Assembly: GCA_946407725.1 (NCBI GenBank)
Contig: CAMJPM010000008.1
Span: 1-55,178, forward strand
Source: an uncultured Lachnospiraceae bacterium
Lineage (GTDB): Bacteria; Bacillota; Clostridia; Lachnospirales; Lachnospiraceae
Reading direction: 5' to 3'
Length of the DNA stretch: 55,178 bases
This document shows positions 8,018-41,568 of this stretch, one piece after another. Position numbers and translations under genes: made by a program. A model generated the notes under the pieces. That model saw only the letters and a program-made list of their open reading frames with translations. It ran no database searches and was not told where the DNA came from. Position 1 is the stretch's first letter. Each line of letters begins with the position of its first letter.

Positions 8018-8118
8018 CTTTACCTCCTTATGTTAAATACTGAACAGTTACCTTTCATTTTATATGAACATTTTGCAGAATACAATCCATCTTTTAAGAG
8101 GTTATATTAAAGATTGCT

Positions 8119-8163
8119 ATAGGTTTCCAAACGCAAAATCGGAAAATGCGTTCGGAAGCCTAT
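8119..8163. repeat. Imperfect 17-bp inverted repeat in the divergent intergenic region
   Basis: The arms ATAGGTTTCCAAACGCA (8119-8135) and its near complement at 8147-8163 differ at two positions and enclose 11 bases. It lies between the DUF1269-type gene and the MMPL gene. No T-run follows it on either strand, so it is not a standard terminator; it could be an operator or a cruciform element. Confidence 0.6.
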
Positions 8164-8179
8164 GCTTTCATAAAAAAAA

Positions 8180-8208
8180 TTGCAACACCTGCTATTTTTG
8201 TGTTAAAC
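8180..8208 (+). promoter_or_regulatory. Possible sigma-A promoter for the MMPL-GLUG operon
   Basis: TTGCAA at 8180-8185 and TTAAAC at 8203-8208 are separated by 17 bases, upstream of the MMPL transporter gene. The -35 fits well and the -10 only moderately. A second AT-rich candidate (TTTAGTATAAAG, about 8246-8257) lies closer to the gene. Confidence 0.3.
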
Positions 8209-8261
8209 TGCTATTTCAAGCACTTTATTAAGGGATCGGTATCTATTTAGTATAAAGGGGA

Positions 8262-8290
8262 TTATTAATAAGGAAGTTTATTAATAAGGA
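8262..8290 (+). repeat. Direct repeat carrying duplicated Shine-Dalgarno sites
   Basis: TTATTAATAAGGA occurs at 8262-8274 and again at 8278-8290, 16 bases apart. Each copy contains the palindrome TTATTAATAA and ends in a purine tract that could bind ribosomes (AAGGAAG and AAGGAGAG). Only the second is correctly spaced from the ATG at 8301. This looks like a tandem duplication in the leader of the MMPL gene. Confidence 0.8.
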
Positions 8291-8300
8291 GAGTTATTAA

Positions 8301-13944: not shown

Positions 13945-13985
13945 AAAGATCCCGGCAGAAATCTTATATTCCGCCGGGATCTTTT
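13945..13985. terminator. Bidirectional intrinsic terminator
   Basis: AAAGATCCCGGC (13945-13956) and GCCGGGATCTTTT (13973-13985) form a 12-bp stem with a 16-base loop. It sits between the convergent GLUG gene and GH3 gene and has T-runs on both strands (CTTTT on plus, the complement of AAAG on minus), so it can end both transcripts. Confidence 0.9.
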
Positions 13986-14014: not shown

Positions 14015-15727
14015 TCACTCTTCCATTTCCTGCTTAAGCATGAAGAAGAACTTTCTCTGCCTTTCATTCATTATCACGCGTACAGGCTTCAGTTGGTTTA
14101 ATGAAGCTCCTTTGAATACCATCATATCACGGTAGAGAAGGGATGTTTCAGGCTGGAGGAAATATACCTCGGGCTTGTCCAGCCAGTGGTCCTTATAGCA
14201 GTCCATATAAACCGGATTGGCTTCGCACAGATACTTAAACACTGTATCCTGAAGCTTTTTCATATCGAATTTTTTGATCTCGCGGAGAGGCTCTATAAGG
14301 AAATCATAACGGTTGGGAGTTACATCGGTATTGGGATATACAGAGAAATCTGCCAGCTGTATTCCCAGCTCTTCGCAGGTTTTTTCCACTGCAATCTGAA
14401 GGGCTTTTTCGGTGGTCTTCTCTTCTGCCAGATTTATGGTCCTGTTTACCCTGTACATGAACTGAACCTTAGGAGTATTGTTAAACATTCCGGTAACAAT
14501 GATGGCATCGCTCATACGATAACGCCAGAAGCCGCTTAAATTCGTAATGATAAGCTCGTAGATCTTTCCCTCCTCCAGCTTGTCCATAGTAACACACTTG
14601 CTGAAATCATTTCCCGCCTCTACCGGAAGGAATTCCACAAAGGCTGCCGAAGGAGCCAGGATACTGTCAAAATCATTGATCCCGGAAGGCACTGACCATA
14701 ATCCCTCAGAAGCAGTGATCCCGGAATAGATATGCTTAAGGCCTTCCCCTGTGTAATGCTCCTTGATCAGACGGTCGTATACTTCAAAGCCGTCGCCTCC
14801 GGCTCCAGTCATATACTGGAAATGCGGCCATACCTTTCTAACCCAGGGGGTATCGATACCGTCCTTAAATGCCTCCCGTAACTCGGCTGCACGCTCCGGC
14901 ATGGGCTGTATCTTCTCTAAAAGACTTGCCCTTACATTGTCGGGCATATCGATGTCATCCGAGATAGTACCTGTTTCTATATCATGTATCAAAAGCTCAT
15001 GGTTGTCTTCTATATAACGAAGGAAAAGCACGATAACACTGTAGAAGCCGGTGATCATGCCACGAACATCGCTATCCATAAGTGCGAAACGGGTATGGAT
15101 ATATTTTGAATCCACTCCCTCTTCGGGATTTAAGCCCTCCAGAGGAGAGGTATACATGGTGCGGATCATGGCATCCATTTCTTTTTTTCCGCCCTTTAAG
15201 TGTTCCGCCATCTTGGAGGAAGCCTCTCCCACGGTAAGCCCGCTGGGAAGTGTCCTGTAGTTCCCGCTGGAGGTGCAGAAGCCCCTGCCGTTCATCCAGT
15301 CTGCATCCACTCCGTCACGGATGATGCCGTACATCAGAAGATAATTATACTTTTCATATACCTTCGACTGCTCCTGCGTCATGGGCACTACCTTGGGCAC
15401 GCCTACTGTTCCGGAAGTCTCATTAAAGTGATCGTAGCCATAGGCAGTGAGGATGTTGCGCTCACCCTCCATCATACGCTCCAGATACGGTGCTATGTCA
15501 TCATAGGTCACTACCGGAACCTTTTTCTGGTAATCCTCTATGGTCTTAATATTGGCGAAATCATATTTCTTTCCGTATTCCGTATCCTTGTTGTCGTCAA
15601 GGAGCTTCATTAAGAGCTGTGTCGTAAGCTCCATCGGATGCTTTGTCTCCTCATGAAAAGCTTCCAGCATTTCATGTCCCCTGAGAGAGCTTTGATCATT
15701 TGCAAAATAGGTGTTTTTGTTTTCCAT
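14015..15727 (-). CDS. GH3-family acyl-adenylating enzyme
   Basis: A 570-residue member of the GH3 (auxin-responsive promoter) family, a branch of the ANL adenylate-forming enzymes. Plant GH3 proteins join amino acids to acyl acids through an acyl-AMP. The ATP-binding motif is FNETSGTVGVPKVVPMT, followed by YSGITASEGLWSVP and GFWRYRMSDAIIVTGMFNNTP, which are standard GH3 motifs. Length and order are normal. GGAGGGAA lies just upstream of the ATG. It is the last gene of the lipid/partner-switch operon, 62 bases after the RsbW-type gene and directly before a strong terminator. The bacterial substrate is unknown; a lipid or amino-acid acyl conjugate is an inference from the neighbours. Confidence 0.88.
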   Translation of the reverse strand: MENKNTYFANDQSSLRGHEMLEAFHEETKHPMELTTQLLMKLLDDNKDTEYGKKYDFANIKTIEDYQKKVPVVTYDDIAPYLERMMEGERNILTAYGYDHFNETSGTVGVPKVVPMTQEQSKVYEKYNYLLMYGIIRDGVDADWMNGRGFCTSSGNYRTLPSGLTVGEASSKMAEHLKGGKKEMDAMIRTMYTSPLEGLNPEEGVDSKYIHTRFALMDSDVRGMITGFYSVIVLFLRYIEDNHELLIHDIETGTISDDIDMPDNVRASLLEKIQPMPERAAELREAFKDGIDTPWVRKVWPHFQYMTGAGGDGFEVYDRLIKEHYTGEGLKHIYSGITASEGLWSVPSGINDFDSILAPSAAFVEFLPVEAGNDFSKCVTMDKLEEGKIYELIITNLSGFWRYRMSDAIIVTGMFNNTPKVQFMYRVNRTINLAEEKTTEKALQIAVEKTCEELGIQLADFSVYPNTDVTPNRYDFLIEPLREIKKFDMKKLQDTVFKYLCEANPVYMDCYKDHWLDKPEVYFLQPETSLLYRDMMVFKGASLNQLKPVRVIMNERQRKFFFMLKQEMEE

Positions 15728-15789
15728 TCTTTCGTTCCCTCCATAAATACATTTTTTCCATAGCTCCTTTCCTCAGCACAACGGTTCCT

Positions 15790-16209
15790 TCATTGTTCTG
15801 AAATCTGTTTCTTTAGCGTCAGCCGGTTGCAGCCGCCGCTGTATTCGTATTCCAGTTCATCCACCATGGACTTCACCATAAAGATGCCAAGACCGCCGAT
15901 CTCCCGATCTTCTCCTGAAAGCAACGTATCGGGATCAGGCTTTTCCAAAGGATCAAAGGGCTTTCCGCCGTCGATCAGACGGAAGGTTGCCATGCCGTTT
16001 TCCACATTGCCCCGTATTTCCACCCATCCGTCTCCCGAAGGATAAGCGTACAGTGTTACATTCACATACAGCTCTTCCACGGCCATTCGCAGCTTCGTAC
16101 GCACTTTGGCTGCACAGCCGTGGTTATCCAAAAGCAGGCTGACAAAAGCAAGAATGAGATCCATTCCTTCCAGTTTTGCCGGAATTCTAAGAGAATATTC
16201 TTCAGTCAT
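15790..16209 (-). CDS. RsbW-type anti-sigma/serine kinase (HATPase_c)
   Basis: A 139-residue GHKL ATPase-fold protein of the RsbW/SpoIIAB group, which binds a regulatory partner and phosphorylates a STAS protein. The N box AVEELYVNV has the Mg-binding Asn at about residue 50, the G1 box is LIDGGKPFDPL (Asp 80), and the G2 box is EIGGLGIFMVKSMVD. All key residues are present, unlike in the fused domains of the neighbouring MATE proteins. It starts 31 bases after the STAS gene. In partner switches it phosphorylates the STAS protein and the PP2C enzyme reverses this. No sigma factor is encoded nearby, so its output partner is unknown. Confidence 0.9.
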   Translation of the reverse strand: MTEEYSLRIPAKLEGMDLILAFVSLLLDNHGCAAKVRTKLRMAVEELYVNVTLYAYPSGDGWVEIRGNVENGMATFRLIDGGKPFDPLEKPDPDTLLSGEDREIGGLGIFMVKSMVDELEYEYSGGCNRLTLKKQISEQ

Positions 16210-16240
16210 AGTTTTAAGCTCCTTCTAAAGTAATTCAATG

Positions 16241-16540
16241 TCAAAAAATGCCGAACACAGCATCCAGTCCCGTGTTCTGCAGCACATCCATAAAGTCCTC
16301 TCCAACATTTGCAAGCTCCATATTTCCCTTTGCCGCCTTCATCTGCTTGTAGGTAGCCAGCAGTACACGTAATCCTGCGGAAGAGACATAGTCGCATTCC
16401 GTGAAATCCAGGGTCAGGTTCTGGACGCCGTCAAGTTCCTTTTCCAGAAGAGCGGACAGCTCCGGCGCAGTCAGCGTGTTCATCTCACCCGACAGATGAA
16501 CAGTAAGTTCAGTTCCATTTTTCTCATGTGTTAGTTTCAT
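16241..16540 (-). CDS. STAS-domain anti-sigma factor antagonist
   Basis: This 99-residue protein is a single STAS domain like SpoIIAA or RsbV. The phosphorylatable site is in CDYVSSAGLRVLL, with Ser 54 (or 53) at the family position. The N-terminal strand LTVHLSGEMNTLTAPEL is typical. It is encoded between the SpoIIE-type phosphatase (13-base gap) and the RsbW-type kinase, the classical order of a partner-switch module. Confidence 0.92.
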   Translation of the reverse strand: MKLTHEKNGTELTVHLSGEMNTLTAPELSALLEKELDGVQNLTLDFTECDYVSSAGLRVLLATYKQMKAAKGNMELANVGEDFMDVLQNTGLDAVFGIF

Positions 16541-16553
16541 GTGTTCACCTCCG

Positions 16554-18005
16554 TCATTTAATACTTAATATTATCATGGTAATGTCGTCGAACTGTGGAA
16601 CTCCCACGGCAAAATCGTTGACATCATTAAGGATCCGCTGCAGTACCTGTTCTCCGGTGCAATCCCTGGTGCTGTCCAGCATTTTGTCAAGCCGGTCATT
16701 GCCATAAAGGCCTCCCGACCGGTCATGGGCTTCCACAACGCCATCGGTATAAAGCAGCACACGGTCTCCCGACTCCAGCTGAATTTCCCCCTGCTTGTAC
16801 TGTGTAAATTCCAGGCCGCCCAGGAACAGTCCGTGATTCTCCTTTATTATCTCGCATGGCTGATCCTTTCGCAGTAAACACGGATAATTATGGCCTGCAT
16901 TGGTGTATTGCAGGGTCATTGTCCTGGTATCCACTATGCCTATCCAGGCGGTGGCGAACATGCCCTCGTCATTGTTTTCGCAGAGCCTTTCATTGACAGA
17001 GGTAAAAATCTCCGACGTGCTGTTCTTCATCAGCGCATAGTCCTTGATCATTGTTTTGCACGTCATCATAAACAGGGCTGCCGGCGTGCCTTTACCGGAT
17101 ACATCGGCAATCAGGAAGCAGAGGCGGTTGTCGTCAATGGGGAAATAATCATAGAAATCTCCTCCCACCTCCTTGGCGGTAGTCATGCTTCCCCGTAGAT
17201 TCAGATCCAGATGATTTGCAAACTCCGGCGCTACAGGCGGCAGGGCGTCAGTCTGGATCTTGGATGCGATCCTGAGTTCCGTCTCCACCGACTTTATCTG
17301 AGCCTGGGCGTCCAGTACACTATGGGTACTCATGTTGGTAACCAGATATACCAGTGCCAGGGATATTGGAATAGATGTGGTCTGGAAATCATCCATGCCT
17401 TCGCCGAGAATGATCAGTTCCATAGCGAAAATTACAGGTGCCATTATGCCGAAAACAATCAGGCTGACAGGAATTTCCCCATCGGCCGGTCTGAATTTTT
17501 TGCCAAGTGTGAGAAAGAAGATTGCAATTAAAACCGGGATGAAGATATATAATAGCACCATCCCCTGGAAAAGGGAATTAAAGAGCTCTTCGGTACGTAC
17601 AACACCGCCTTCATCAACCCAGAACACCAATTTCGTCCAGGGCGTTGTGACACAGGCCAGAGCGAACGCCGCTATCGGCAGCGCATATATGATGATCTCC
17701 AATTTTTTACCCGGCAGTATGCCTATACGTTCAAGCAGGTATCTGTCAAGGAAGGCTTCAAAGATGAGACAGACGATGCAATAGCTGCTCACAAATATGT
17801 AGGCAAAAACCCTCAGTTTCGGATGTCCGTCAACGACCACCCACAGAATCTCAAAAATACACGAGACTATTCCTAAGATCAGCATCATGGAAATGTAGTC
17901 TTTTATCTTCTGTTTATAAAGAAATATGTTGTTGATAAGCAAAACAGACATCAGAATGCCGGAAACAAAAAGAAGCTCCAGAAACAGCCGGTTTGGTGCA
18001 TCCAT
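16554..18005 (-). CDS. Membrane-bound SpoIIE/RsbU-type PP2C phosphatase
   Basis: A 483-residue protein with six or seven predicted membrane helices (residues about 8-230), a short linker helix (LDAQAQIKSVETELRIASKIQ) and a C-terminal SpoIIE-type PP2C serine phosphatase. Metal-binding motifs are complete: KEVGGDFYDYF, IADVSGKGTPAALFM, TNAGHNYPCLL, LLYTDGVVEAHD and PQFDDITMIIL. Its probable role is to dephosphorylate the STAS protein encoded just downstream in response to a membrane signal. The sensor region resembles the membrane region of the protein at 46729-47850 in general layout. The gene lies 18 bases after the second MATE fusion gene. Confidence 0.92.
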   Translation of the reverse strand: MDAPNRLFLELLFVSGILMSVLLINNIFLYKQKIKDYISMMLILGIVSCIFEILWVVVDGHPKLRVFAYIFVSSYCIVCLIFEAFLDRYLLERIGILPGKKLEIIIYALPIAAFALACVTTPWTKLVFWVDEGGVVRTEELFNSLFQGMVLLYIFIPVLIAIFFLTLGKKFRPADGEIPVSLIVFGIMAPVIFAMELIILGEGMDDFQTTSIPISLALVYLVTNMSTHSVLDAQAQIKSVETELRIASKIQTDALPPVAPEFANHLDLNLRGSMTTAKEVGGDFYDYFPIDDNRLCFLIADVSGKGTPAALFMMTCKTMIKDYALMKNSTSEIFTSVNERLCENNDEGMFATAWIGIVDTRTMTLQYTNAGHNYPCLLRKDQPCEIIKENHGLFLGGLEFTQYKQGEIQLESGDRVLLYTDGVVEAHDRSGGLYGNDRLDKMLDSTRDCTGEQVLQRILNDVNDFAVGVPQFDDITMIILSIK

Positions 18006-18023
18006 GACTTATAATCACTCCTT

Positions 18024-19766
18024 TCATTCGGCCAGCGGCTTTATAAGGAAGGCACTGCGGTTAAAACTCATGGTAGTCAGGTGGCGCCGGTCCTCCCCCA
18101 GCTTTTCCATATAAGCGGAGACAGCAAAGGCTGCAAGGGAGGTGACGCTAACATCTTCCTCCGATATGTCGAAGAGCACTCCATCGTCCTTCGTGATGAT
18201 CTGAACTCCCTCCGGCCGGAGAAATATGGTACACTCGCTGAGAACCTGCTTACCCTCGTTCTTTTCGTAAATAAGCATGTACAGTTCTTCGATCAGCAGC
18301 TTTATACGTCCCACGGTACGCTTATCCACATCATTTTCCTTCAGCAGTGCCTCCACATTTTTCTGCAGTCCGATGATCTCATTCGGATCTACTTTTAGCT
18401 GGAACAGGAAGGACTTGTCACTCCCCGGCACTTTGGTGAGTAACAGCGGCCATTCCTCCTTACCATAACGCATTTTAACAAAAATCATCAGTAAAGCATA
18501 GGCCATTGCGGGCGCTATGGCAAACCCGGCAAACATTCCAGGTACTCCCAGAGCCTTGCCAAGGATCACAGCGAGACTTGCACTTAAGACCACATCTCTT
18601 AGTGCGCAGACCACCACTCCCAGAAGGATCTGATTGATCACCAGATAATATGAGCTGATCAGGTACAGGATGCTTATAAATGCGGCTCCAAGGGCTGTCA
18701 CCCGGATACCTGTCACGGCCATACCCATAAGCTCTGGCTGTGTGATATTCAGTACCATTGGCACAAAGGGCGCAATGATCAAAAGAACAAGGGTGACCAA
18801 AATCCCCTCTATAATGGCAGTCCGGTTTGACAGATCATAGCTTGAGCGCAGTCCGCTCTGGTTTTCCTCTCCCAGATAAACGCTGAAGATTGGTGCGGAT
18901 GCCTGTCCGATGCCGTCGAAGAGCAACTGAAACTCCCGGCTTAAGGTGATGACGGATGCCAGGATAAGGTATTCCGGTCCGAACTGTGCGCCGATAAAGG
19001 CATTGAGAACGGCGGTCAATATGGCAAAAAAGAGATAACAGCTGGAATCAATGATACTGTAACGAAAGACCTTGCCCAAAACCTCCGGGGAAAAATACAG
19101 ATTCCAGCGGAGGGTGTTGCTTTTCCTCTTAAAATGCACCATAAGGATCAAAACAGCGATCACGTAGAATGTGCATGATGCCAGGCCAATTCCGCGTATT
19201 CCTATAAAATGACTTAAGATAATGGAAAATGTTATATTTCCCAAGCCCTGTACAGCGTTGGCTATCGTTGAAACTGTCTCGTCTCCATCACTGTAAACTG
19301 TGGCAGCCAGAAGCGACTGCATCGGAATGATGAGGATTGTAAAACGCATCCAGAAAAGATACCCTCTTGCCTGGTTCAGTATCTCTTCCGAAGGAGAAGA
19401 ACTGAGAAGATACATCTCCCCGAACAGACAAGTCAGCAGAAACAGCACGACACCCATAATTATGGACATCAGTACTCCCAGTCCAAAGACCTGGTCTGCC
19501 CTCTCCTTATTGAATTTCCCCATCTCTGTTGTGTACAGAATAGGCACTCCCAGTGATATCACCGAGCCAAAAAAAGCTCCAAGGGAATAGAGGGGCGTCA
19601 CCAGCGTAACTCCGGCCACGGCATCGGAGCCGATGACAGAACCGGCAATAATGGAATCTGACATCAGCATGACGGAAACCACCATCATGGTCAGCGTTCC
19701 CCCAAGCAGCATGGAAAAAAACTTATTTGACATCATTGTCGGTTGCTTTTTAGTGAATAGCTGCAT
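18024..19766 (-). CDS. MATE transporter fused to a degenerate RsbW-like ATPase domain (copy 2)
   Basis: The 580-residue protein has about 12 membrane helices of the MATE/MOP flippase fold (residues 1-440, e.g. LMSDSIIAGSVIGSDAVAGV). Residues about 455-580 form a soluble domain that matches the HATPase_c_2 fold of anti-sigma kinases: KLLIEELYMLIYEKN stands at the N box, but the expected Asn is replaced, and ITKDDGVLFDISEED stands at the G1 box. Standard MATE proteins end near residue 450, so this is a true fusion. It overlaps the first MATE gene by 17 bases and precedes the PP2C gene. The domain may bind the STAS or RsbW proteins of the same operon and couple transport to the switch; that is inference. 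Confidence 0.88.
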   Translation of the reverse strand: MQLFTKKQPTMMSNKFFSMLLGGTLTMMVVSVMLMSDSIIAGSVIGSDAVAGVTLVTPLYSLGAFFGSVISLGVPILYTTEMGKFNKERADQVFGLGVLMSIIMGVVLFLLTCLFGEMYLLSSSPSEEILNQARGYLFWMRFTILIIPMQSLLAATVYSDGDETVSTIANAVQGLGNITFSIILSHFIGIRGIGLASCTFYVIAVLILMVHFKRKSNTLRWNLYFSPEVLGKVFRYSIIDSSCYLFFAILTAVLNAFIGAQFGPEYLILASVITLSREFQLLFDGIGQASAPIFSVYLGEENQSGLRSSYDLSNRTAIIEGILVTLVLLIIAPFVPMVLNITQPELMGMAVTGIRVTALGAAFISILYLISSYYLVINQILLGVVVCALRDVVLSASLAVILGKALGVPGMFAGFAIAPAMAYALLMIFVKMRYGKEEWPLLLTKVPGSDKSFLFQLKVDPNEIIGLQKNVEALLKENDVDKRTVGRIKLLIEELYMLIYEKNEGKQVLSECTIFLRPEGVQIITKDDGVLFDISEEDVSVTSLAAFAVSAYMEKLGEDRRHLTTMSFNRSAFLIKPLAE

Positions 19767-21504
19767 TTGACGTATTCCTCCCGGTAAGGGTTATGCATAC
19801 AATATTCATCCTGTAGACATAGCTATAGGAAATGGTTTCTTTACCACCCTGCGCCATTATATTTTCTGATACCGATGGCGGCAGGTCCCGGCGTTGTCCC
19901 AGACTGCGTATGAATAACTCTGCCTTCTCTCCTGTATCCCTCAGCCTTATGTGAATATACTTAGAGTGCCGGCGCATGTCTGAAACCAGTTCTTCCGCAG
20001 AGTGAACCACAGCATCTAAAATGCCAGGGTCTGAAATGACACCCGGTAATGCTTCTCTAAGCTTCTTAAGTTCTGATGCTGTGTCCGTTTCATTTCCCAG
20101 TATCTCATATTCAAGGAGCGTAGTCCCTGAATAGAATTCTTCAGGCAGTAATAAGAGCCGGTCAAATCCTCTGCCTGTCCTTGCAGCAATAAACAGCACC
20201 AATGGGATAAGCAGGAACAGACCGATCACCTGATTGCCGGTGATAGAGAGCCATATCCCGTCTTTCCCAAGAACCGGGATCAGAAACATCATCATGAGCA
20301 CATACAAACAGGAATCCGGGATGATCGCAAAGGCCATGGAGAGGTTGAACCGTTTCGTAGCTTCATAATACAGCGTAAACATATATACTGTATGCATAAC
20401 CGGGGTAAAGATCATACAAAGCAGTACCCCCCTTAAAATATCCTGTGATAATTCCATTCCGCATAAAGCCGAAAGCACCGGAGCTGAAACATAAAACAAC
20501 ACAGCCCAGACAACAGACATCACCGTGCCCATGACCCATCCCTGCTGCCATACAATCTCTATGCTGTTCACATCCCTTTCCTCATAGAATACACCAAACA
20601 GAGGCTCTGTCGCAATAGCCGCCCCTTTTATGGTTCCGGAGGCAAAATAGGAGATGTTACAGACCACCTCAGCTGCGGGCAGGATCATCTGATCGCCGGG
20701 AAAACCTGAAAGTATCAGATTATTCTGAATACCCATCACGATATTTTCCGCAAAGTAGTCCGCTGCTGCCGGAAATCCGCATCTGACGGTTTCAGCGATC
20801 TCCCTGGGACGAAGGATCAGCGGACGGTATCCCAGCCGGACCTTCATGATACGCAGAATAATAATTCCTCCGATAAATTCCGCAAGCCCTCCCGCAGAGG
20901 TTCCGATCCCCAGTCCCGCCAGCTTCATATCAGCAGGAAAATGAGTTGCACAAAGGATGGATACGATAAGATTGACCGCCACATTGATCCCTCCCAGTGT
21001 TGCGCGCGAGGCCTGAAACCCGAAGACATTCATTACCTCCTGAAGGATCATCCCCAAAGCGGTCAAAAACACTATGGGAGAGCAGAACATAAGATATATC
21101 ACCGCATTATGCCGGGTAACAGGATCCACCATATCACCGCCGCAAAGAAGAACAATGCTGTCCGAAAAGGCAAAAATAAGTATGGCGAACACAATCCCCG
21201 CAAAACATACAAGGGTCGCACCCCCGTAAAATGCTCTCTGAAATCCCCGGTCGTCCGCCCGGCTCTTTGCCCAGATCATCCTTAGCCCGCTGCCGTGGAT
21301 AAGGGAATATATTACTGCCGCCAAAACCCCATACCCCGGAACGCCCAGTGCCACTGCCGCGATGCCGGCTGCCCCAAGATTCCAGCCCGCGATAATGCTG
21401 TCGATCATCAGGGTGATATTAAAAATAAGCCCGTACAATACAGCCCCGGGATATAATGATACAATATTATTCCATATCACCTTTCCTGAAGATTCCTCAG
21501 GCAT
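19750..21504 (-). CDS. MATE transporter fused to a degenerate RsbW-like ATPase domain (copy 1)
   Basis: A 584-residue MATE-family protein (helices in residues about 10-445, e.g. LMIDSIIAGWNLGAAGIAAV) with a C-terminal extension of about 125 residues. In the extension VVHSAEELVSDMRRHSK aligns to the N box of RsbW-like ATPases, but the Asn is replaced and no DxGxG box is visible, so ATP binding is doubtful. It is a paralogue of the downstream copy, not a simple duplication: the two differ strongly in sequence. Located 37 bases after the PAP2 gene. MATE proteins move drugs or, in the MOP superfamily, lipid-linked molecules; the lipid genes next door suggest a lipid-type substrate. Confidence 0.86.
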   Translation of the reverse strand: MPEESSGKVIWNNIVSLYPGAVLYGLIFNITLMIDSIIAGWNLGAAGIAAVALGVPGYGVLAAVIYSLIHGSGLRMIWAKSRADDRGFQRAFYGGATLVCFAGIVFAILIFAFSDSIVLLCGGDMVDPVTRHNAVIYLMFCSPIVFLTALGMILQEVMNVFGFQASRATLGGINVAVNLIVSILCATHFPADMKLAGLGIGTSAGGLAEFIGGIIILRIMKVRLGYRPLILRPREIAETVRCGFPAAADYFAENIVMGIQNNLILSGFPGDQMILPAAEVVCNISYFASGTIKGAAIATEPLFGVFYEERDVNSIEIVWQQGWVMGTVMSVVWAVLFYVSAPVLSALCGMELSQDILRGVLLCMIFTPVMHTVYMFTLYYEATKRFNLSMAFAIIPDSCLYVLMMMFLIPVLGKDGIWLSITGNQVIGLFLLIPLVLFIAARTGRGFDRLLLLPEEFYSGTTLLEYEILGNETDTASELKKLREALPGVISDPGILDAVVHSAEELVSDMRRHSKYIHIRLRDTGEKAELFIRSLGQRRDLPPSVSENIMAQGGKETISYSYVYRMNIVCITLTGRNTSNAAIH

Positions 21505-21541
21505 ATTTACACTCCCCGTCCGCGCTTTTAATTGAAAATCA

Positions 21542-22198
21542 TTACGCCCTTCCCTGCCGGCAGGTTACCCTTGAAGAAATAAAATAACTCAATTCGGCAA
21601 GAAGAACCCCGGAGATCACATCAGCGATCACGTGCTGCTTTACGGTAAGGGTTGATATACATACAGCGAACGCAATGATAAACGATACTGCCCTGTACCA
21701 TTTTGGGATCTCCCTTTTTCCACGTACTCCGATCCAGCACAGATAGCTTACAAAGCAGTGTATGGATGGCAGCAGGTTATCTGCGCTGTCCATTCTGTAT
21801 GTGGTCTCTATCAATGATAACAATCCCTTTGCATCACTTATCACCGGCCTGTCCATTGTAGTCGGAAAGAGAACAAACAGAATGAAGCATATGGTCTCTC
21901 CGATAAAATGGGATATAATAAAGCAGCGTCCTCCGGACTTATCACATCGTATCCCAAGATAATAATTTATTCCCCAGAAAATGCTGCATCCCCAATATAT
22001 CAGTATTGTCCAGGGTATAAAAGGAATGATGTTATCGAGAACAGAAGTCAGATTGTGATGGTAAAAACCCTTTGATATCAATCTCCCGCCGGAATATATA
22101 AGGAAATTATATGATGCTGCCAGTATGATCAAAAGGATTGCAGTTCCTGTATTCTTTATTCCGGAGCGCAGTCTGTCCTCATCCTTCATATATTGCAT
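21542..22198 (-). CDS. PAP2-superfamily membrane phosphatase
   Basis: The 218-residue protein has about six membrane helices and the three PAP2 motifs: MDRPVIS (weak first motif), PSIHCFVSYL (PSxH) and STLTVKQHVIADVISG (SxxxxxHxxxD). Such enzymes dephosphorylate phosphatidic acid, phosphatidylglycerophosphate or undecaprenyl diphosphate at the outer membrane face, or act as lipid phosphotransferases. The ATG at 22198 follows AAGGCAGG and overlaps the end of psd by 20 bases; a GTG one codon earlier is also possible. The close coupling to pssA and psd suggests a phospholipid substrate. Confidence 0.88.
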   Translation of the reverse strand: MQYMKDEDRLRSGIKNTGTAILLIILAASYNFLIYSGGRLISKGFYHHNLTSVLDNIIPFIPWTILIYWGCSIFWGINYYLGIRCDKSGGRCFIISHFIGETICFILFVLFPTTMDRPVISDAKGLLSLIETTYRMDSADNLLPSIHCFVSYLCWIGVRGKREIPKWYRAVSFIIAFAVCISTLTVKQHVIADVISGVLLAELSYFISSRVTCRQGRA

Positions 22199-23003
22199 CA
22201 CCTGCCTTAACAGGTATCTCTCCGCCGCTTTTAATTCTGCCGGAAAGCCCTCGGTTTAACTCTATTCTTTGTTCCGTAAGGACAATGATCGTGGAGCCCC
22301 CATACTCAAAATATCCCTTTTCTTCGCCGCCTGATACCATTTCTCCGGGCTTAAAAGCCGGGTTATTCGTTATCTTTCCCACAAGCATGGCTCCGACTTC
22401 CATCTGGACAACCTTCCCCATCCTTTTACTTTCAATAACAGTATACTCACGGCTATTTTCCGTGAATACCGGAAATCTTTCCAATGCCGCCGGCCTCACA
22501 CAGTGAAGCACACCCTTTATTTTCCTTCTTCGGATAATCCTTCCGTCTGTACAGAATACATACCTATGATAGTTTGCCGGTGTTAGCCTGAAAATAAACG
22601 CCGTCCCTCCGGCAAATGCATCTGCCATCGCTTTATCTCTTAAAAGAGACTCTATGCTGTATCTGCAATGCTTGATATCAAAGACTGCATCACTGCTTAT
22701 TTCTTTTACTGTAAGAAACCCGTCGCAGGGGGACTGCAGCTCCGGTTCCGGCTCCGGATTAAGCTTACGTTTCCGTCTCCTGGTAAAAAAATCATTAAAT
22801 GAACGGTATCCCCCCTCCGGGATGACATACTGCCGAAGGTCTATATTGTTTTTCTTTACAAATCCGGGTATCAGAAATGCCGAAATTCTAGATGAAAAAA
22901 AAGCCGATAATGCCCTGGACAGATAAGGATTTACAAGGATTTTCAGCATTATCCTGCCGGGAACCGTCCTGTACAGGAACAATACGATTCCTGACTCCTT
23001 CAT
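22179..23003 (-). CDS. psd: Phosphatidylserine decarboxylase proenzyme
   Basis: A 274-residue Psd that makes phosphatidylethanolamine from phosphatidylserine at the membrane. The C-terminal motif YFEYGGSTIIVL corresponds to the (F/L)GST self-cleavage site whose Ser becomes the pyruvoyl group. Other family segments are FNDFFTRRRKRKL, SPCDGFLTV, FRLTPANYHRYVF and VGAMLVGKI. Its ATG overlaps the stop of pssA by 4 bases (ATGA), so the two steps of the pathway are translationally coupled. Confidence 0.94.
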   Translation of the reverse strand: MKESGIVLFLYRTVPGRIMLKILVNPYLSRALSAFFSSRISAFLIPGFVKKNNIDLRQYVIPEGGYRSFNDFFTRRRKRKLNPEPEPELQSPCDGFLTVKEISSDAVFDIKHCRYSIESLLRDKAMADAFAGGTAFIFRLTPANYHRYVFCTDGRIIRRRKIKGVLHCVRPAALERFPVFTENSREYTVIESKRMGKVVQMEVGAMLVGKITNNPAFKPGEMVSGGEEKGYFEYGGSTIIVLTEQRIELNRGLSGRIKSGGEIPVKAGDAIYEG

Positions 23004-23644
23004 ACCAGATCCCAGCCAATGAAGAGTAATCCCAGAGCTTCCAGCAGACCGAAAACTATCAGAAACGCCTTGCCCTTGAGATCGGGCTTTTTAATTTCAA
23101 AAGGTGACAGGAAACCTGCCCCGCAGAAAACAAGCAGTAATATATACGGAATTACGCCCCTGAAGATTTTTTCCTCCTGCAATAGGAATATTACCGGCAG
23201 CATAACCGCAATGCTTGTGACCGGAAGCCCTGTAAAATGTGTTCTTTTCCCTTCAGATTTGTCCTGCCTTTTCTCTTCGCACACATTGAAATAGGACAGC
23301 CTGATAACTGCCGCAAGAGCATATAATGAGGAAATTATCCCGGCAAATGTGGTTCTTCCGGATATCATATATAAGAAAATTCCGGGCATGATGCCAAAAC
23401 CAATAAGGTCACATAAGGAATCTATCTGGATACCGAAACGTTTTTCTTCTTTAGTCCTGTTCTTTGTATTGGCCACCGTCCCGTCCAGCATATCAAACAG
23501 TCCGGCAAGCATAAGTAAAATAACCGAATCCCAGTAGCGTTCATTTATTGCCATGAGAATGGCACGAAATGAACAGAACATCCCCAGATAGGTTAAGATC
23601 ACAGTATAGTCATAGTATCCCAAAAGTCGTTTTTTGTTTTCCAT
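23000..23644 (-). CDS. pssA: CDP-diacylglycerol-serine O-phosphatidyltransferase
   Basis: A 214-residue integral membrane enzyme of the CDP-alcohol phosphatidyltransferase family, making phosphatidylserine from CDP-diacylglycerol and serine. The signature runs DGTVAN...GIQIDSLCD, matching DGxxA(R)x8-9GxxxDxxxD, with Asn in place of the usual Arg after the Ala. Six to eight hydrophobic helices follow. The pairing with psd confirms serine as the alcohol. It starts 10 bases after the DedA-like gene. Confidence 0.92.
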   Translation of the reverse strand: MENKKRLLGYYDYTVILTYLGMFCSFRAILMAINERYWDSVILLMLAGLFDMLDGTVANTKNRTKEEKRFGIQIDSLCDLIGFGIMPGIFLYMISGRTTFAGIISSLYALAAVIRLSYFNVCEEKRQDKSEGKRTHFTGLPVTSIAVMLPVIFLLQEEKIFRGVIPYILLLVFCGAGFLSPFEIKKPDLKGKAFLIVFGLLEALGLLFIGWDLV

Positions 23645-23654
23645 TTTTCCCCCA

Positions 23655-24281
23655 TTATCTGATCAGCCCGAAAGCATAACTGTACGCAAAGATACACCAG
23701 GGTTTCCCCAGAATGATTATCCATATGAATTTCTTCGCATTCATTTTTATAAGACCTGAAAAGTAACATAAAAAATCATCCGGGAAAAGCGGCAGCAGCG
23801 TTGCAACAAATAAAAACAGATCATACGAGCGATGCCTGTTTATCTTTTCAACCCATTTGTCATACTGTTTCTTCGGAAACAGCAGAAGCAATGCTTTCAG
23901 TCCATATTTTCTCGCTATAAAATATGCCGCTATGGATCCCAGAGATATTCCGATATAATTACATAAGAATCCGGTCATGGTTCCAAATGAAACCGCACCT
24001 ACAATGCACCCAAGATAACCGGGCACAACAGGTACTATAACCTGAAATGCCTGGAAAAGCGTCAAAACAATGGGCGCAGCCGGTCCGAACCCGCAAATAT
24101 AAGCCTGGAATTCAGAAACGCTTGAAATTTTCTGCCCTGCAATGATCTTAATGAAAATTACAGTAAGCAGTATGAGGATTATAAGCGTTACTGCCCTGAT
24201 CTTTTTCCCTGTTGATTCCGAATCCATAAAGTTAGGTGAATATACTCCCTTTTTTATATTTCGCTTTCTATAATACCACAT
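23655..24281 (-). CDS. TVP38/TMEM64 (DedA-related) membrane protein
   Basis: The 208-residue protein has an N-terminal helix and the conserved VTT domain: FGPAAPIVLTLFQAFQVIVP, VPGYLGCIVGAVSFGTMTGF, IGISLGSIAAYFIARKYG and LFPDDFLCYFSG. Family members (YdjX/YtxB, DedA superfamily) are implicated in lipid scrambling or transport across the membrane. It is the first gene of the tightly packed lipid operon and starts 47 bases after the C_GCAxxG gene. Confidence 0.9.
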   Translation of the reverse strand: MWYYRKRNIKKGVYSPNFMDSESTGKKIRAVTLIILILLTVIFIKIIAGQKISSVSEFQAYICGFGPAAPIVLTLFQAFQVIVPVVPGYLGCIVGAVSFGTMTGFLCNYIGISLGSIAAYFIARKYGLKALLLLFPKKQYDKWVEKINRHRSYDLFLFVATLLPLFPDDFLCYFSGLIKMNAKKFIWIIILGKPWCIFAYSYAFGLIR

Positions 24282-24328: not shown

Positions 24329-24802
24329 TTATTTCACAGGATTCTCTTTAATATACCATTCAAGTATCTCTGCGGCATCCCCGATCATTTCCGGGCAGGG
24401 ACGCTTTTTGTAATACTCATCAGTCCGTTTTTCCGGTTCCGGGTTATCATGCCGGACATTAAGATTTAAGAGTTCCCGGCAGACTATGGATCCATGCTTT
24501 TCCTCAAATCTGTGTGCCAGCTCCTGTATTCTGGCATAGTGCTCCGCCTTTAGCCTGTCGTCCCCGGGTTCTTCATATCCATATAACAGGCCTGCCGCCA
24601 TAAACATGCCGCTGACAGCGCCGCATACCTCCCTGAGCCTTCCCATCCCTCCTCCAAAAGACGAGGACAGCTTAGATAACAGGCTTTTATCAACAGGAAG
24701 CATGTCTTCAAATGCCAGTACGATTGACTGGGAACAGTTATAGCCCTTCCTGAAATTTTCCATTGCCGCTTCTCTTCTTGTCTTATCCGTTACCTTTTCC
24801 AA
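24329..24802 (-). CDS. C_GCAxxG_C_C family redox-type protein
   Basis: A 157-residue protein of the C_GCAxxG_C_C family, common in anaerobes and of unknown function, thought to bind metal or undergo redox. It has the motifs RKGYNCSQSIVLAF and SSFGGGMGRLREVCGAVSGM, then late Cys residues in IVCREL and RPCPEMIGDAAEIL. Soluble. It is upstream of the lipid operon and might be read through into it, or be monocistronic. A 37-bp palindromic repeat lies about 40 bases upstream of its start. Confidence 0.88.
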   Translation of the reverse strand: MEKVTDKTRREAAMENFRKGYNCSQSIVLAFEDMLPVDKSLLSKLSSSFGGGMGRLREVCGAVSGMFMAAGLLYGYEEPGDDRLKAEHYARIQELAHRFEEKHGSIVCRELLNLNVRHDNPEPEKRTDEYYKKRPCPEMIGDAAEILEWYIKENPVK

Positions 24803-32562: not shown

Positions 32563-32573
32563 AAAATATCTCC

Positions 32574-35500
32574 CTACCTCTTGAGCCATCTGCTGTCAAA
32601 GAATCCCAGTCCCATCAGGCCCCGGATAAACTTTTTAAAATAATCACCGTCTACAGGCGGCCAGAAAAATCCCTGTCTGGCAAGTATCTGGGTAGTCAGC
32701 TCATGATCCACGCCGGCTCCCCGCATCAAGGAGTCATTATGCAGGCTCTCATAGGCGCTCATGCTCTGGAGTATGGCCGCCTTATCGGGGTCGCTTTCCG
32801 CTTCGGCAACCCTGCGCTCAAACTCCTTATCCTCCACAAATTCAATCGTGAGACCCAGCTCCTTCATGATATGGATTATGGAAATATATGGCAGAACCAT
32901 ATTATTTACAGCATTAAACAGGCAGTTTTCCTTCGGGGTGGCCGCAAGCTTCAGGAAAGCTCTGGCGCTGAAATCTATGGGACCCATCCTTATGGGCTTA
33001 TCCATTGACGAATACGGAAAAGCTTTAAGCATTGCATATGAGCGAAGTCTCTCCACAAAGCTGTTAGTCCGGAAATTCATCTGGAATTCCCCGTCCCTCA
33101 TGCGGGCGGCCAGGGTTCCGACACGGATGACCTTCGCATCCAGCCCCTCTTTCGCCACAGCCTGCATGACCTCAAGCTCAGCCTTCATTTTAGAAAAACT
33201 GTACTGATTTTCAAGGCTTTGCCCAAAATACATGTTATTCTCATTCAGCTTTATGAAGGCGTTTTCCGGAGTATTCCTCACATTTCCCGCCACACTGACC
33301 GTTGAAAAATGGATCAGCCTGGCGCCTGTTGCAAGACAGAACCGTACACAGTTTACCGCTCCCCCTACATTTACATTCTCAATATCCGTACCGCCGGAAA
33401 AATGCTTGACGTTGGCTGCACAGTTAAACACCGTGTCTATCGGTTCGCCTTTAATGCTCTCAAAGGCTTCTGGATCTGTCACATCCCCGTCTATCACTTT
33501 TACCCTCTTGTCTACCTGAGAACGTATCTCTTCGGGAAACTCTGTGAGCTTATCCCCGAAATAGTAAAAGAAAGTACTTTTCAGCCTCTGTTCGGCAGTC
33601 CTGCCATGTTTCGAGCGCAGCAAGCAATATGCGGTTCCTTTTTCAGAATGCAGGAAATTTGCCAGCACATGTACTCCCATATAGCCGGCAGCACCCGTAA
33701 GCAGTATATTCCCAATGGGTCTGCTCTCTTTATCCATATAGGCTTCCAGTGTGTTTTTCTTCAATACCTCAGCTATAGCGGCATGGTCATATTTCTCTAA
33801 GGCTTTCCTGCTATCTCCCTGCACCGGGGATATATCACCTTTAAGATAAGCCGCCAGAGCCCTGGGGGTCTTATACTTGAAAAGATCGCCAAAGGTTATG
33901 GAATACCCGCTGCGCTCTGCCTCGATCACCACTGAAGATGCCACCAGCGAGGTTCCGCCGATCTCGAAGAAATCATCCGTGGCTCCCACTTTCTCAAGCT
34001 TTAATACACGGGCGAATATGTCTGCAAAGCCCTCCTCCACCTCTCCTGCAGGTGCCACGTATTCTCCCGTGGATACAGCCACAGGCTCCGGCAGGGCGCG
34101 GAGATCCGTCTTTCCGTTGGGTGTGACGGGGATCCTCTCCATCTGCAGATATGCTGTAGGTACCATATAACGGGTAAGCTTTTTCCCCAGCTCCTCCTTA
34201 AGCTTCTGTATATCTACCTTCACTGAAGCCGTGAAATAGGCACAAAGGTTATCCTGGCCGTTAAGCTTTCTGATGACCACCACTGCCTTATTTATACCGC
34301 TCTGCCGGGCTATGAGCCCTTCTATCTCGCCTAATTCTATCCTTAAGCCCCTGAGCTTAACCTGGCTGTCCTTCCGTCCAAGAATAATAACGTTTCCATC
34401 CCTGTCCCACTTTGCGTAATCCCCTGTATGATAGACCCTTACTCCTTCATATTCCCCGAAATTCTTTTCAGTCATCTCAGGAAGGTTTCTGTAGCCCCTG
34501 GCAACTCCCGGGCCTCCTATAAGAAGTTCTCCCATTACGCCTTGAGGCACAGGGTTGGCGTCGCTGTCCACGATATACTCGGTATAATTCGGGAGGGGTC
34601 TTCCCACGCTTATATGCTCTGCCCGGGTAAGGTCTGCCATATTTGAGGAAACCGTTATTTCCGTAGGTCCGTATGAATTCATAAGAGCGGGTATGCCAAG
34701 ACTCAGTAATCTTTCCTGCAGCACCTTCGGATATGCCTCTCCGCCGCAGATCACAAGAGTGCACTTTGACAGTGCCTCCTTGAAAGGCTCGTATTCCATA
34801 TATTGCAGAAGCCTTGAAGGAGTGGCGCTGAAGGCATCCGCACCGGTTCTGGCCATAGCCTTCGATAAGGCCCTGGGGTCATTCATCTCTTCCTCGTTTG
34901 TGAACACAACAGTCTTTCCGTTACAGAGGATTCCCACCGTATCCTTAAAGGACATGTCAAAGGATACTGTGGTAACAGACACTATCTTTTCAAGCTTTTC
35001 CGCTACATAATTGAAGAAGATGCTGTCCTTATCCGGATTGATATAATTGCATATTCCGCCATGGGTAAGCTCCACACCCTTAGGCTTTCCCGTAGATCCT
35101 GAAGTATAGATCATATAGGCCAGATCCTCCGGATTTACTGACACCTCCGGGTTACCTTTCTCCCCGCCGGCCATCATATCATCTATAAGCAGAACCTTAT
35201 CCTTATCGTAATCCCCTGCGTGATCCGGAGTAGTCAGAATAAATTTTGCATCCGCATCTCCCAGGATATGGCTTATCCTCTCTGCAGGATATTCGGGGTC
35301 ACAGGGGATAAAAACAGCTCCTGCCTTTAACGCTCCGAACAGAGCAGCGAAATAGAATCTGCGTCTCGGCAGAAGCAGTACGATGCTGTCCCGGGGCTTT
35401 AATCCTCTGCCTGAAAGATTAGAAGCTATGATATTTGCTGTCTCATTAAGCTCCTTAAAGGTCCAGCTTCCCTCGGCGGTTATCAGCGCCTCCCTTTCCG

Positions 35501-38500
35501 GATACCTCTCTGCTGCAGCCTCAAAGGCTTTGTGCAGAAGATCATAGGCGGGCTTGCAGCTTTTAACTGAACTAAAGCCCTTAAGGCGCTCCTTTTCCTC
35601 CCCGTCCAGCATTGATATCTTCTTTACTTCGGCATCCGCGTCGGCAATAAAAGCCCGGGCCACGGTACAGACCGCTCCTGCCAGGGTCTCCATGTACTCA
35701 CCGGTATAAAGCGCATCGTTATACCGCACAAGGACAGAATATGATCCCTCCTTTTCCCCTATCACCACTGTGGTCTTAAACTTCGGCACCTCCAGCTTCA
35801 AAGGGATTCTCTCATATTTCAGCTCTTCCCCCAAATCTGCTCCGGTCACCCCCACCTGATACTCGTACATGAGCCCGGTATGATAGGAATATTTTGCGGC
35901 AAGCTCGGCAAAGGGACATGCCTCATGCTTTATTCCGTTCCTCATACAGTCATTTGCTTCCCGGATAAGCTCGTCCACCTTTAAGTCCCTGTCAAGATTC
36001 ATGATGAGAGGAATGGTATGAACGAACATACCGAGAGAACGGATATTTTTTAGGCCGTCACGTCCGGAGGAGATGGTGGATATTGCTGCCTTCTTATTTC
36101 CTGCAAATCTCGATGCGGTATAGAATACGGCTGCGAGAAACAGTGCAGATGCGGTAACTCCCTGCTTCTTACAGAAAGCATCTATTTCAGCTTTGGAAAG
36201 GAGCTTTTCCGTCTCACCTATAAAGCCTTCCTCTGCCGCCCCTGGCTTATCCGGCGGTATCTCTGTAGATTCCTCGAAGCCCTTAAAAGCTTTTTCAAAA
36301 TACTCTGCCGATCCGGCGTAGTCCTCCGAATCCCGTAAATTTATTTCATCTTCCACATAATCGAAATATGTGTAATTTTCCGGCTCTATCTCTGCACCCT
36401 TATAGGCATCAGCAATCTCTTTTAGAAAGATACCGGCTGAAAGCCCGTCGAAAATGAGATGGTGCATATCCTGCAAAAGATATACCGCTTTTTCCGTACG
36501 GACCACAGCTATTCTGTATAAAGGACCTCTCTGCAGATCGAAGGAACGGATAAAGCTTTCCTTATATTTCCCGAATTCCTCCTCACCCATCTTAAGGGCA
36601 GCCACATCCACATCCGCCTCATCGTTCCTTACCTGCTTAAGCTCCCCTTTCTGAAGTATCAGATGAGTATTTAAGTAAGGGTGAGCCTCTATAACTTTCC
36701 TTACAGCCCTTTGCAGCCTTCCTGGATCCACCTCGTTTCCGAAGGCATAGCACATGGGAATATTGTACAGGCACTGCCCCTCATTCTTTATGGCGTCATA
36801 ATAGACCGCAAGCTGGACGGATGAGAGGGGATAGCTGTCCTTTCTTTCACGGGACTTTTCCTCTGCTCCGGAGCTGCTGCCATTCTTTATGATCTCACTC
36901 CATTTCCCGATGATCGTATTTTCGATATCGATTACGCTCATCCCGTCAAGGAGCTTCGTCACCGGAAGCTCGATACCGAAACGCTCCGAAAACAGAGGGA
37001 CCAGCCTTATGGAATTAATGGAATCCAGCCCGTAATTTACAAGGCTCCCGGACACTCCTATCTCCGTTTCTCCTATGACCTCCTGAATACAGGAGATTAT
37101 CTGCTCCTCAAGAAGTGTCCGGGTGCGGTTTTCCTCTGCTTCAGGCTGTGTATTGAACACGGGCTTCGGAAGTGCCCTCTTGTTGACCTTCTGGTTCTGG
37201 TTCAAGGGGATAGCGTCTATCTGCATAGTTGCCGCAGGAACCATATAGGACGGCTTTTTACTCCGGATGAAATCATTAAGCGCCGCCACATCTATCTCCT
37301 TATCAGATACGATATAGGCTGCTATGAACTTTCCGCCTCCCTCCTCCTCAAAGGCCTGGACAGTAACTTCCTTAATTCCGGGGAACTCGCCTATCACAGC
37401 CTCCACCTCGGTCAGCTCTATCCTGAAACCGCGGATCTTAACCTGTCCGTCGTTCCTGCCCACAAAATCTATATTTCCATCCGACAGCATATGTACCACA
37501 TCCCCGGTACGGTAAGCTTTTTCGTAACCCTCCTCAGAATCGTAGATATTCTTTACAAAGACCTCGGCATTCTTCTCAGGACGGTTCAAATACCCTCTTC
37601 CCACCTGGGGGCCTGCTATCCACAATTCTCCGGGGGCTCCCACGGGAAGCCTGCGGCCTTCGGGATCAACGATATACAGCCTTAAATTATCCAGAGGCTT
37701 TCCTATGGGCACCCGTTTATACAGCCTGTCCACTTTAAAGATCGTAGAGATTATTGTACACTCCGTAGGTCCATAAGCATTGTGGAAAGCAAAGCTCTTG
37801 CCGGGATAAAGAGGGGTCAGCTTTTCGCCGCCAACTGAAAGGTGCTTTAAGGAACCTCCGTCGTAATACTGTGCAAACTGTCTGCCCACCTGGGTGGTCA
37901 TCAGGCTGTGAGTAACCTGATGCTCATCAAAGTATTGCTTTATCGCATTAAAATCCAGCCTTATCTCCTCAGGGACTATTACGACCGCCGCACCCGTGGT
38001 AAGGGCAGGGTAAAGATCCATCATGTTTGCATCAAAACCATAGCTTGCATAAGCAGCCACTTTTGAATCGGGAGTAAGGGAAAAATAGTCCCTGTGCCAT
38101 GCGCAGAACGCCGAAAGATTTCCATGCTCCAGCATGACTCCCTTCGGAACCCCGGTAGTCCCGGAGGTGTAGAGCATTATAAACCTGTCCCCGCTCTTTG
38201 GCGTATCTTTCAGCTCCTCTGTTTCCGGGAGTGAGCCGATCTCATCCGTATAGAGGATCTCTCCCTTATAGTCCGGAACCAGGTCTCTAAGAGGCCTGTC
38301 CGCTATCAGCAGCTTTGCGGCCGCATCCTCTATCATAAATTCCAGTCTTTCCGGGGGATAGGAGGGGTCTAAGGGCTGATAAGCCGCCCCCGACTTAAGG
38401 ACGCCGAGTGAAACAAGGACAATATACTCCGAACGGGGGATCAGCACTGATACCACATCTTCCGTGCCTATTCCCTTACTCTTCAGGTATCCGCCAATCC

Positions 38501-39902: not shown

Positions 39903-39980
39903 ATTGATGCTCCTTTGTAATTTTTCAGATGATGATTATATATTCAAGAGTCAAAAGGCCATAACCTTGAAGCATAATTT

Positions 39981-41525: not shown

Positions 41526-41568
41526 GTTATCTCCTTTCCCTGAAATCGTCTGTCCTCATCCTTAACCT

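Follow-up and report, generated by a model that had tools for sequence, protein, structure and literature searches.

We analyzed a 55,178-nucleotide stretch of contig CAMJPM010000008.1 (positions 1 to 55,178; hereafter the window) from the 3.28-Mb draft genome, in 162 contigs, of an uncultured Lachnospiraceae bacterium (GenBank assembly GCA_946407725.1). The subject is a group of ten minus-strand open reading frames (ORFs) at 14015..24281, which an initial annotation had described as one operon for lipid enzymes, a partner switch and two MATE exporters. Partner switches are textbook controls of sigma factors. The layout was confirmed, with gaps of 10–62 bases at six junctions and overlaps at three, and Pfam likewise recovers the families named at the outset: VTT/DedA, CDP-OH_P_transf, PS_Dcarbxylase, PAP2, MatE (twice), SpoIIE, STAS, HATPase_c_2 and GH3 (Table 1). 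The strong terminator placed after GH3 corresponds to a hairpin with a 16-bp stem; none of 200 shuffled sequences was equally stable. Judged from sequence, the ten genes look like two units, dedA-pssA-psd-pap2 and MATE1-MATE2-SpoIIE-STAS-RsbW-GH3, and not one ten-gene unit.

Table 1. Features of the window discussed in the text
Feature	Position	Strand	Evidence
GH3-family acyl-acid amido synthetase	14015..15727	-	GH3 N, M, C domains
RsbW-like serine kinase, N, G1 and G2 boxes intact	15790..16209	-	Pfam HATPase_c_2 80 bits; motifs
STAS protein, anti-anti-sigma type, Ser in SSAGL	16241..16540	-	Pfam STAS 65.3 bits
Membrane SpoIIE-type PPM phosphatase, ~6 predicted transmembrane segments	16554..18005	-	Pfam SpoIIE 170.1 bits; hydropathy scan
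MATE2, exporter with degenerate RsbW-like C-terminal domain (class tail2)	18024..19766	-	Pfam MatE 71.9 bits
MATE1, exporter with degenerate RsbW-like C-terminal domain (class tail1)	19750..21504	-	Pfam MatE 30.6 bits
PAP2-family membrane phosphatase, end of lipid block	21542..22201	-	Pfam PAP2_3 27.6 bits, cut-off 27
psd, phosphatidylserine decarboxylase, lipid block	22179..23003	-	Pfam 150.6 bits; GGST motif
pssA-like CDP-alcohol phosphatidyltransferase, lipid block	23000..23644	-	Pfam 48.5 bits
dedA-like VTT-domain membrane protein, first lipid-block gene	23655..24281	-	Pfam VTT 71.3 bits
Terminator-like hairpin between convergent genes	13945..13984	.	z = -7.13
NRPS near the MATE at 41569..43371	32574..39902	-	Condensation x2, AMP-binding x2, PP-binding x2, C-terminal reductase-type NAD_binding_4
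Related MATE with RsbW-like tail	41569..43371	-	Pfam MatE 104.8; HATPase_c_2 22.8, under cut-off 27.4

Both MATE proteins of the operon are members of the family, with 10 and 11 hydrophobic segments by hydropathy scan, and both extend about 140 residues past the transporter part. Pfam HATPase models match neither tail at E-values up to 0.01, and the relationship of the tails to RsbW emerges from profile comparison. Four profiles were used: A1 (the tail2 class), A2 (eight RsbW domains outside MATE proteins), A3 (tail1, four sequences) and A4 (24 MATE-fused tails). A4 matches A2 with a probability of 99.0, and its best match in the PDB is RsbW (6m36, E-value 2e-5), with SpoIIAB next. The MATE2 tail profile A1 matches A2 at a probability of 90.3 and A4 at 98.7; it has no match in the PDB. 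For the MATE1 tail, direct comparison of A3 with A2 (probability 1.5) and A1 (5.8) failed to detect kinship, which is seen only through A4 as a bridge (probability 96.7, E-value 3.3e-10). Among 12 tailed MATEs scanned with Pfam, the HATPase_c_2 cut-off is passed by six (L132, L123, L142, L198, L236 and L237) and missed by six (the three of the window, L085, L185 and L248). By profile similarity, the MATE tails are members of the RsbW/SpoIIAB superfamily by descent, tail1 via A4 only.

The catalytic features are a different matter. The N-box Asn is present in all 13 RsbW domains outside MATE proteins and in 23 of 79 MATE tails; it is found in none of 28 tail2 and none of four tail1 sequences, both window tails included, so these do not qualify as GHKL ATPases or kinases. 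The MATE2 tail keeps only DDG of the G1 box. Since the ATP-site motifs, retained in the separate RsbW, are lost from the operon MATE tails, the latter are probably non-catalytic receiver domains. The initial annotation had assigned anti-sigma-type ATPase domains to the two MATEs. The RsbW kinship holds by profile comparison; the ATPase does not, given the lost motifs and the lack of a Pfam match, and ‘ATPase-like, probably inactive’ is the more appropriate wording. We also considered whether the catalytic Asn is kept in tails that have no RsbW nearby, and rejected this (2/9 with RsbW, 21/70 without, p = 1).

Some relatives of these MATEs have other architectures. The MATE2 relative of highest identity (87% over residues 1-371; L092, genome G005, 7431-11281) lies in a broken cluster, in which mate1 is split into three ORFs, mate2 and the 3' part of spoIIE form one ORF, STAS and RsbW are complete ORFs, and GH3 is absent; an assembly error is possible. 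Four MATEs of about 760 residues (L149, L150, L156 and L244) have an N-terminal extension of 210-230 residues and a weak tail2 match. One of them, L244 of the host genome, has a nonribosomal peptide synthetase (NRPS) gene nearby.

To characterize the genomic context of tailed MATEs, we counted genes within 5 kb, using MATE sets picked solely by similarity or length. These unselected counts omit L127-L133, which had been picked for nearby SpoIIE, and L242, picked for nearby GH3. The main and clustered counts skip proteins with a transporter part starting after residue 180. The clustered count also skips tails of 60-99 residues, drops the broken fusion L092, which is among the 62 long-tailed MATEs of the main count, and adds seven loci from a phylum-wide search. 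The profiles used for counting were made from these same loci. An NRPS condensation gene lies near 25 of the 62 long-tailed MATEs, and the 49 tail-less ones include a single such case (p 6e-7). When either an NRPS condensation or a switch gene is considered, the numbers are 31/62 and 1/49 (p 6e-9). Recognized tails are present in 55 MATEs, 19 of which have an NRPS gene and 24 an NRPS or switch gene. The association also holds within a single genus: from the matches listed for a tail-less query, 20 long and 20 tail-less proteins were taken, two of the long ones proved tail-less, and NRPS or switch genes were found in 10/18 versus 1/22 loci (p 7e-4). Clusters with either gene number 33/61 versus 1/40 at 80% identity, 23/39 versus 1/24 at 50% and 19/31 versus 1/15 at 40% (p 4e-4); at 40%, significance is lost for NRPS genes taken by themselves (p 0.07) and likewise for switch genes (p 0.07). 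The phylum-wide search covered 348 genomes, with at most three candidates scored per genome and the tailed MATE of a STAS/SpoIIE locus (L132) as query. All seven unselected tail-matched loci from other genomes, fetched without knowledge of the neighboring genes, carry switch genes. Four genera are represented, one of which belongs to the family of the window; the switch component of one locus (L240) consists solely of a STAS-condensation fusion. With these loci added, switch genes accompany 15/69 long-tailed and 1/49 tail-less MATEs (p 0.002). The co-occurrence suggested by the initial annotation is borne out in part: a sigma-less switch with a tailed MATE, with or without GH3, recurs in other genomes, and the six genes from MATE1 to GH3 appear to belong to a wider system marked by the tailed MATE.

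The separate RsbW and STAS of the operon have intact motifs. RsbW has the boxes VEELYVNV (N), DGGKPFDPL (G1) and IGGLGIFMVK (G2) expected of an RsbW kinase. The Ser of SSAGL in STAS, which we take to be the phospho-acceptor, occupies a column kept in 29 of 29 sequences, three STAS-condensation fusions included. The phosphatase is predicted to be of SpoIIE type from a full Pfam domain, and the host genome has 14 SpoIIE matches in total. No sigma factor accompanies them, as had been noted initially: the ten proteins contain no sigma domains at E-values up to 0.01. Among 48 genomes sampled from the genus, several of them incomplete, none has a SigB/F/G sigma factor over the TIGR02980 cut-off; one of 14 control genomes has. 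A SigB/F/G-type output of an RsbU/V/W system was thus found neither in the operon nor, over that cut-off, in the 48 genomes.

The GH3 protein has all three domains of its family (PF03321, PF23571 and PF23572), which assigns it at the level of domain models, and is the sole match in the host genome. GH3 enzymes couple acyl or aryl acids to amino acids or amines in an ATP-dependent manner. The window protein is similar to plant auxin- and benzoate-conjugating enzymes (GH3-1, 4b2g, E-value 2.6e-41, 144.8 bits). Its identification as the lyso-ornithine lipid synthetase OlsH was considered and rejected (NCBIfam 60.2 bits, cut-off 620). We fetched the regions of 20 of 39 and 20 of 40 matches listed in two GH3 searches. 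Nine of 47 GH3 loci have switch genes nearby; among 49 tail-less MATEs there is one such case (p 0.007, uncorrected for kinship). Four of these 47 loci (L072, L084, L085 and L123) have GH3 next to a tailed MATE, as does L242, preselected for GH3. Together with the window protein, the GH3s of those four loci fall into three clades, long branches making exact counts unsafe.

Based on these data, we slightly favor the interpretation that the six genes from MATE1 to GH3 form a regulated module for synthesis and export, with the lipid genes as a separate block. GH3 would use ATP to make an amide from an acyl or aryl acid and an amino acid or amine, and one or both MATEs would presumably export the product. 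STAS would be phosphorylated by RsbW and, upon a signal, dephosphorylated by the membrane SpoIIE phosphatase. Dephosphorylated STAS might then bind the RsbW-like MATE tails and open or release the exporter. It is plausible that the MATE tails are the output of the switch, which would then control the export, and perhaps the synthesis, of a small amide. The earlier suggestion of export of a lipid-amino acid conjugate fits as far as an amino-acid conjugate goes, and its link to membrane lipids is unsupported.

Several observations weigh against this interpretation. Considered alone, switch genes are weakly associated with tails (8/62 versus 1/49, p 0.07), within the genus too (2/18 versus 1/22, p 0.58). 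Half of the 62 long-tailed MATEs have neither gene type nearby, some of them being on short contigs, and no such gene lies within 5 kb of the MATE1-MATE2 pairs in three loci (L089, L091 and L102). Six NRPS-positive long MATEs (L136, L199, L202, L205, L207 and L212) have a tail that the profiles do not recognize. The nearest MATE2 relatives fetched are without GH3, and among the closest relatives of the GH3 protein, four (77-81%; L002, L003, L004 and L069) adjoin an amidohydrolase and no switch. The MATE next to one STAS-condensation fusion (L226) is tail-less. Against the separateness of the lipid block, a contig-start fragment about 1 kb upstream of dedA in a relative of the block (L175, genome G015) codes for the final part of a MATE tail of another class. 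With their ATP-site residues lost, the tails need not bind STAS in the manner of RsbW. Finally, sigma factors other than SigB/F/G match under the cut-off in genomes of the genus, and the target of RsbW might be an unlinked protein.

An alternative explanation is a transcriptional switch in which RsbW sequesters a sigma factor or another regulator encoded elsewhere and the MATE and GH3 genes of the operon are the targets, with tails that are remnants or serve in assembly. Classical RsbV/RsbW/RsbU systems work that way (PMC8256260), a 2010 methanogen paper proposed control of NRPS expression (PMC2812497), and the MATE tails are degenerate. However, the operon has no sigma gene, SigB/F/G over the cut-off is missing from the 48 genomes of the genus, and the fusions of RsbW-like domains to exporters and of STAS to condensation domains would be left unexplained. 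We consider this explanation rather unlikely.

The genes next to tailed MATEs differ from locus to locus. In the window itself, a second cluster (31720-43371) codes for an ARMT1-like protein, a reductase-ended NRPS, a carboxyltransferase and a MATE with an RsbW-like tail. Another locus of the host genome (C36, L243) carries SpoIIE, STAS, RsbW-like, tailed MATE, glycosyltransferase, radical SAM and NRPS genes on both strands; its tailed MATE scores 46.9 bits with HATPase_c_2 in the genome search. Enzymes adjoining tailed MATEs include NRPS, GH3 (L072, L084, L085, L123 and L242), ATP-grasp (L127 and L129), ATPgrasp_ST (L084 and L242), LPG_synthase_C (L133 and L137), an asparagine-synthase type together with PIG-L (L128), and GNAT (L241; under the cut-off in L131). 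Other neighbors break this pattern. Five have no Pfam match (L235, L237, L238, L130 and L144), and the rest are a dCache/HAMP sensor (L239), FeoB (L096), a FIST-EAL protein (L097), an FGGY kinase (L101), a flagellar protein (L103), an acyltransferase (L100), DUF6056 (L095) and an AdoHcyase_NAD match (L236).

In some loci STAS is itself fused to an enzyme domain. STAS-condensation fusions occur in three genomes, recognized by Pfam in L187 (3053-4618) and L240 (5252-6844) and by the profiles made here in L226 (10449-12065). In L240, the fusion gene and that of the tailed MATE share four bases. In L203 (3969-5168), one gene away from a tailed MATE, STAS is fused to an APH-type phosphotransferase domain. 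As predicted proteins, the STAS fusions link STAS to enzymes, and the tails link RsbW-like domains to exporters. Such fusions could also mean that the STAS and RsbW-like domains serve for docking, holding the enzyme to the exporter (channeling), with phosphorylation being secondary. The adjacency of STAS-condensation fusions to tailed MATEs in L187 and L240 is consistent with docking, as are the missing catalytic residues of the tails and the tailed MATE-NRPS loci that have no separate kinase within 5 kb. The conservation of the phospho-acceptor Ser, even in the three fusions, and the recurrence of SpoIIE and intact RsbW argue against it, and the STAS of the window is a separate protein. Docking as the primary role is in our view unlikely.

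Returning to the module of regulated synthesis and export, we tentatively suggest, at somewhat less than even confidence, that a chassis of tailed MATE, STAS, SpoIIE and RsbW is combined in gut-type bacteria with exchangeable enzymes: GH3, NRPS, ATP-grasp, GCS2, aminoacyl-transferase-like and asparagine-synthase-like. The switch would act on the exporter via the pseudo-anti-sigma tail and on the enzyme via STAS fusions. If so, a sigma-type switch would provide post-translational control of the release of secreted metabolites.

As for the GH3 product, the amidohydrolase partner of the near relatives suggests a cleavable amide. In two of these loci, the GH3-amidohydrolase pair lies 3' of importer genes (FecCD and an ABC ATPase in L002, a periplasmic-binding protein in L003), so that a metallophore-like product is another possibility. 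GH3 genes vary in other ways as well. In L083 (7646-9958), a Glycosyltransferase-2 domain is fused to GH3, and the GH3 protein of L086 is similar in length to that fusion. Two Treponema metagenome-assembled genomes (L005 and L007) have a GH3 that is ~68-70% identical and split over two ORFs.

The lipid block precedes MATE1. Phosphatidylserine decarboxylase is supported by Pfam and by the GGST motif, presumably the cleavage site, and scores 208.8 with its best NCBIfam model, under the cut-off of 371. PssA scores 88.7 with the NCBIfam pssA model, under the cut-off of 107. A start of dedA at 24227, 54 bases downstream of 24281, is probable because an 87%-identical relative (L175) aligns from residue 19. 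The psd gene is the single match in the host genome, and psd matches occur in 32 of 117 genomes searched. Ten psd loci were fetched out of 31 matches in other genomes. The order dedA-pssA-psd-pap2 is kept in L175 and L177, and L176, at a contig end, has the last three genes. None of the ten psd loci, some of them clipped by contig ends, contains SpoIIE, STAS or GH3; we therefore rejected a joint lipid-and-switch unit. Conversely, 107 further loci that we fetched, 20 controls among them, contain no lipid genes of the block, and the same holds for locus sets fetched later. The GC content also differs, being 0.40-0.45 in the lipid genes and 0.46-0.49 from MATE1 to GH3. Given the free-standing psd loci, the missing co-occurrence and the GC step, the block is most readily explained as an independent unit lying by chance in front of MATE1, and dedA is probably not part of the switch system.

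The initial annotation had instead treated the ten genes as a single unit, with the switch controlling the synthesis of phosphatidylethanolamine or the export of lipids. The pap2-mate1 gap of only 37 bases and the 3' hairpin after GH3 would suit such a unit, as would the sole psd match, the MATE-tail end near the lipid block of G015 and the LPG_synthase_C-like genes that adjoin two other tailed MATEs. Nevertheless, the block stands without switch genes in L175-L177, and together with the absence of lipid genes from the other loci and the difference in GC content this makes a single unit highly improbable; the proposed link of the switch to membrane-lipid synthesis was not borne out.

Several known systems resemble parts of the module. 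The closest by description is a gene cluster of Methanobrevibacter ruminantium M1 (mru0066-mru0071) reported in 2010, in which an NRPS is found with serine phosphatases, an anti-sigma factor antagonist and MatE (PMC2812497). In both, phosphatases, STAS and a MatE exporter surround a small-molecule synthetase (PMC2812497). The methanogen cluster has an NRPS where the window operon has GH3; an NRPS is absent from the operon and present in the host locus C36 (L243). Regulation of the methanogen cluster was taken to act on expression, and in the passages seen an RsbW-like MatE tail goes unmentioned (PMC2812497). With SigB-type RsbU/RsbV/RsbW switches, the operon shares a SpoIIE-type phosphatase, the STAS phospho-Ser and an RsbW with intact motifs. 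Unlike them, it has no sigma factor, and its exporters carry RsbW-like tails. SypA of Vibrio fischeri is likewise a STAS protein whose output role is untied to a known sigma factor, and its target is described as unknown in a review (PMC8256260); the candidate in the window is a transporter-fused RsbW-like domain. OlsH, a GH3-like N-acyl-ornithine synthetase, is a precedent for ATP-dependent amide synthesis in bacteria (PMC12493201). The window GH3 scores 60.2 bits with OlsH and 144.8 with plant GH3-1, in searches of different kinds whose scores are not strictly comparable. On plasmid pSRC2 of Selenomonas ruminantium, SELR_RS14545 is a MATE with a tail2-class domain (1e-20), like MATE2. Unlike the GH3 of the window, the gene 11 bases upstream belongs to the glutamate-cysteine-ligase family (GCS2, 81.5 bits), and the profiles made here detect no switch genes in the surrounding 17.6 kb.

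A literature search, with most subscription papers outside it, found no account of an RsbW-like MATE tail, of the GH3 version or of STAS-condensation fusions, and no transporter reported as the output of such a switch; of the papers listed, PMC2812497 alone was seen to describe a similar cluster. A partner switch built around an exporter, if real, would extend sigma-type control to transport. It would also help to establish what small molecules are secreted by bacteria of the gut and rumen, and at what times. Tailed MATEs could serve as an easy genome-mining marker of small-molecule clusters, including NRPS-free ones of the GH3 kind.

Consensus scans of the window for regulatory signals gave numbers near chance (23 promoter-like sites with 23.3 expected; 17 terminator-like sites with 13.8 expected), and the hairpin after GH3 is missing from the terminator listing. 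Rfam and tRNA scans returned no matches. Being near-symmetric and flanked by convergent genes, the hairpin may act on both strands. At the other end of the ten genes, directly 5' of dedA and on the same strand, a gene at 24329-24802 codes for a C_GCAxxG_C_C redox-type protein.

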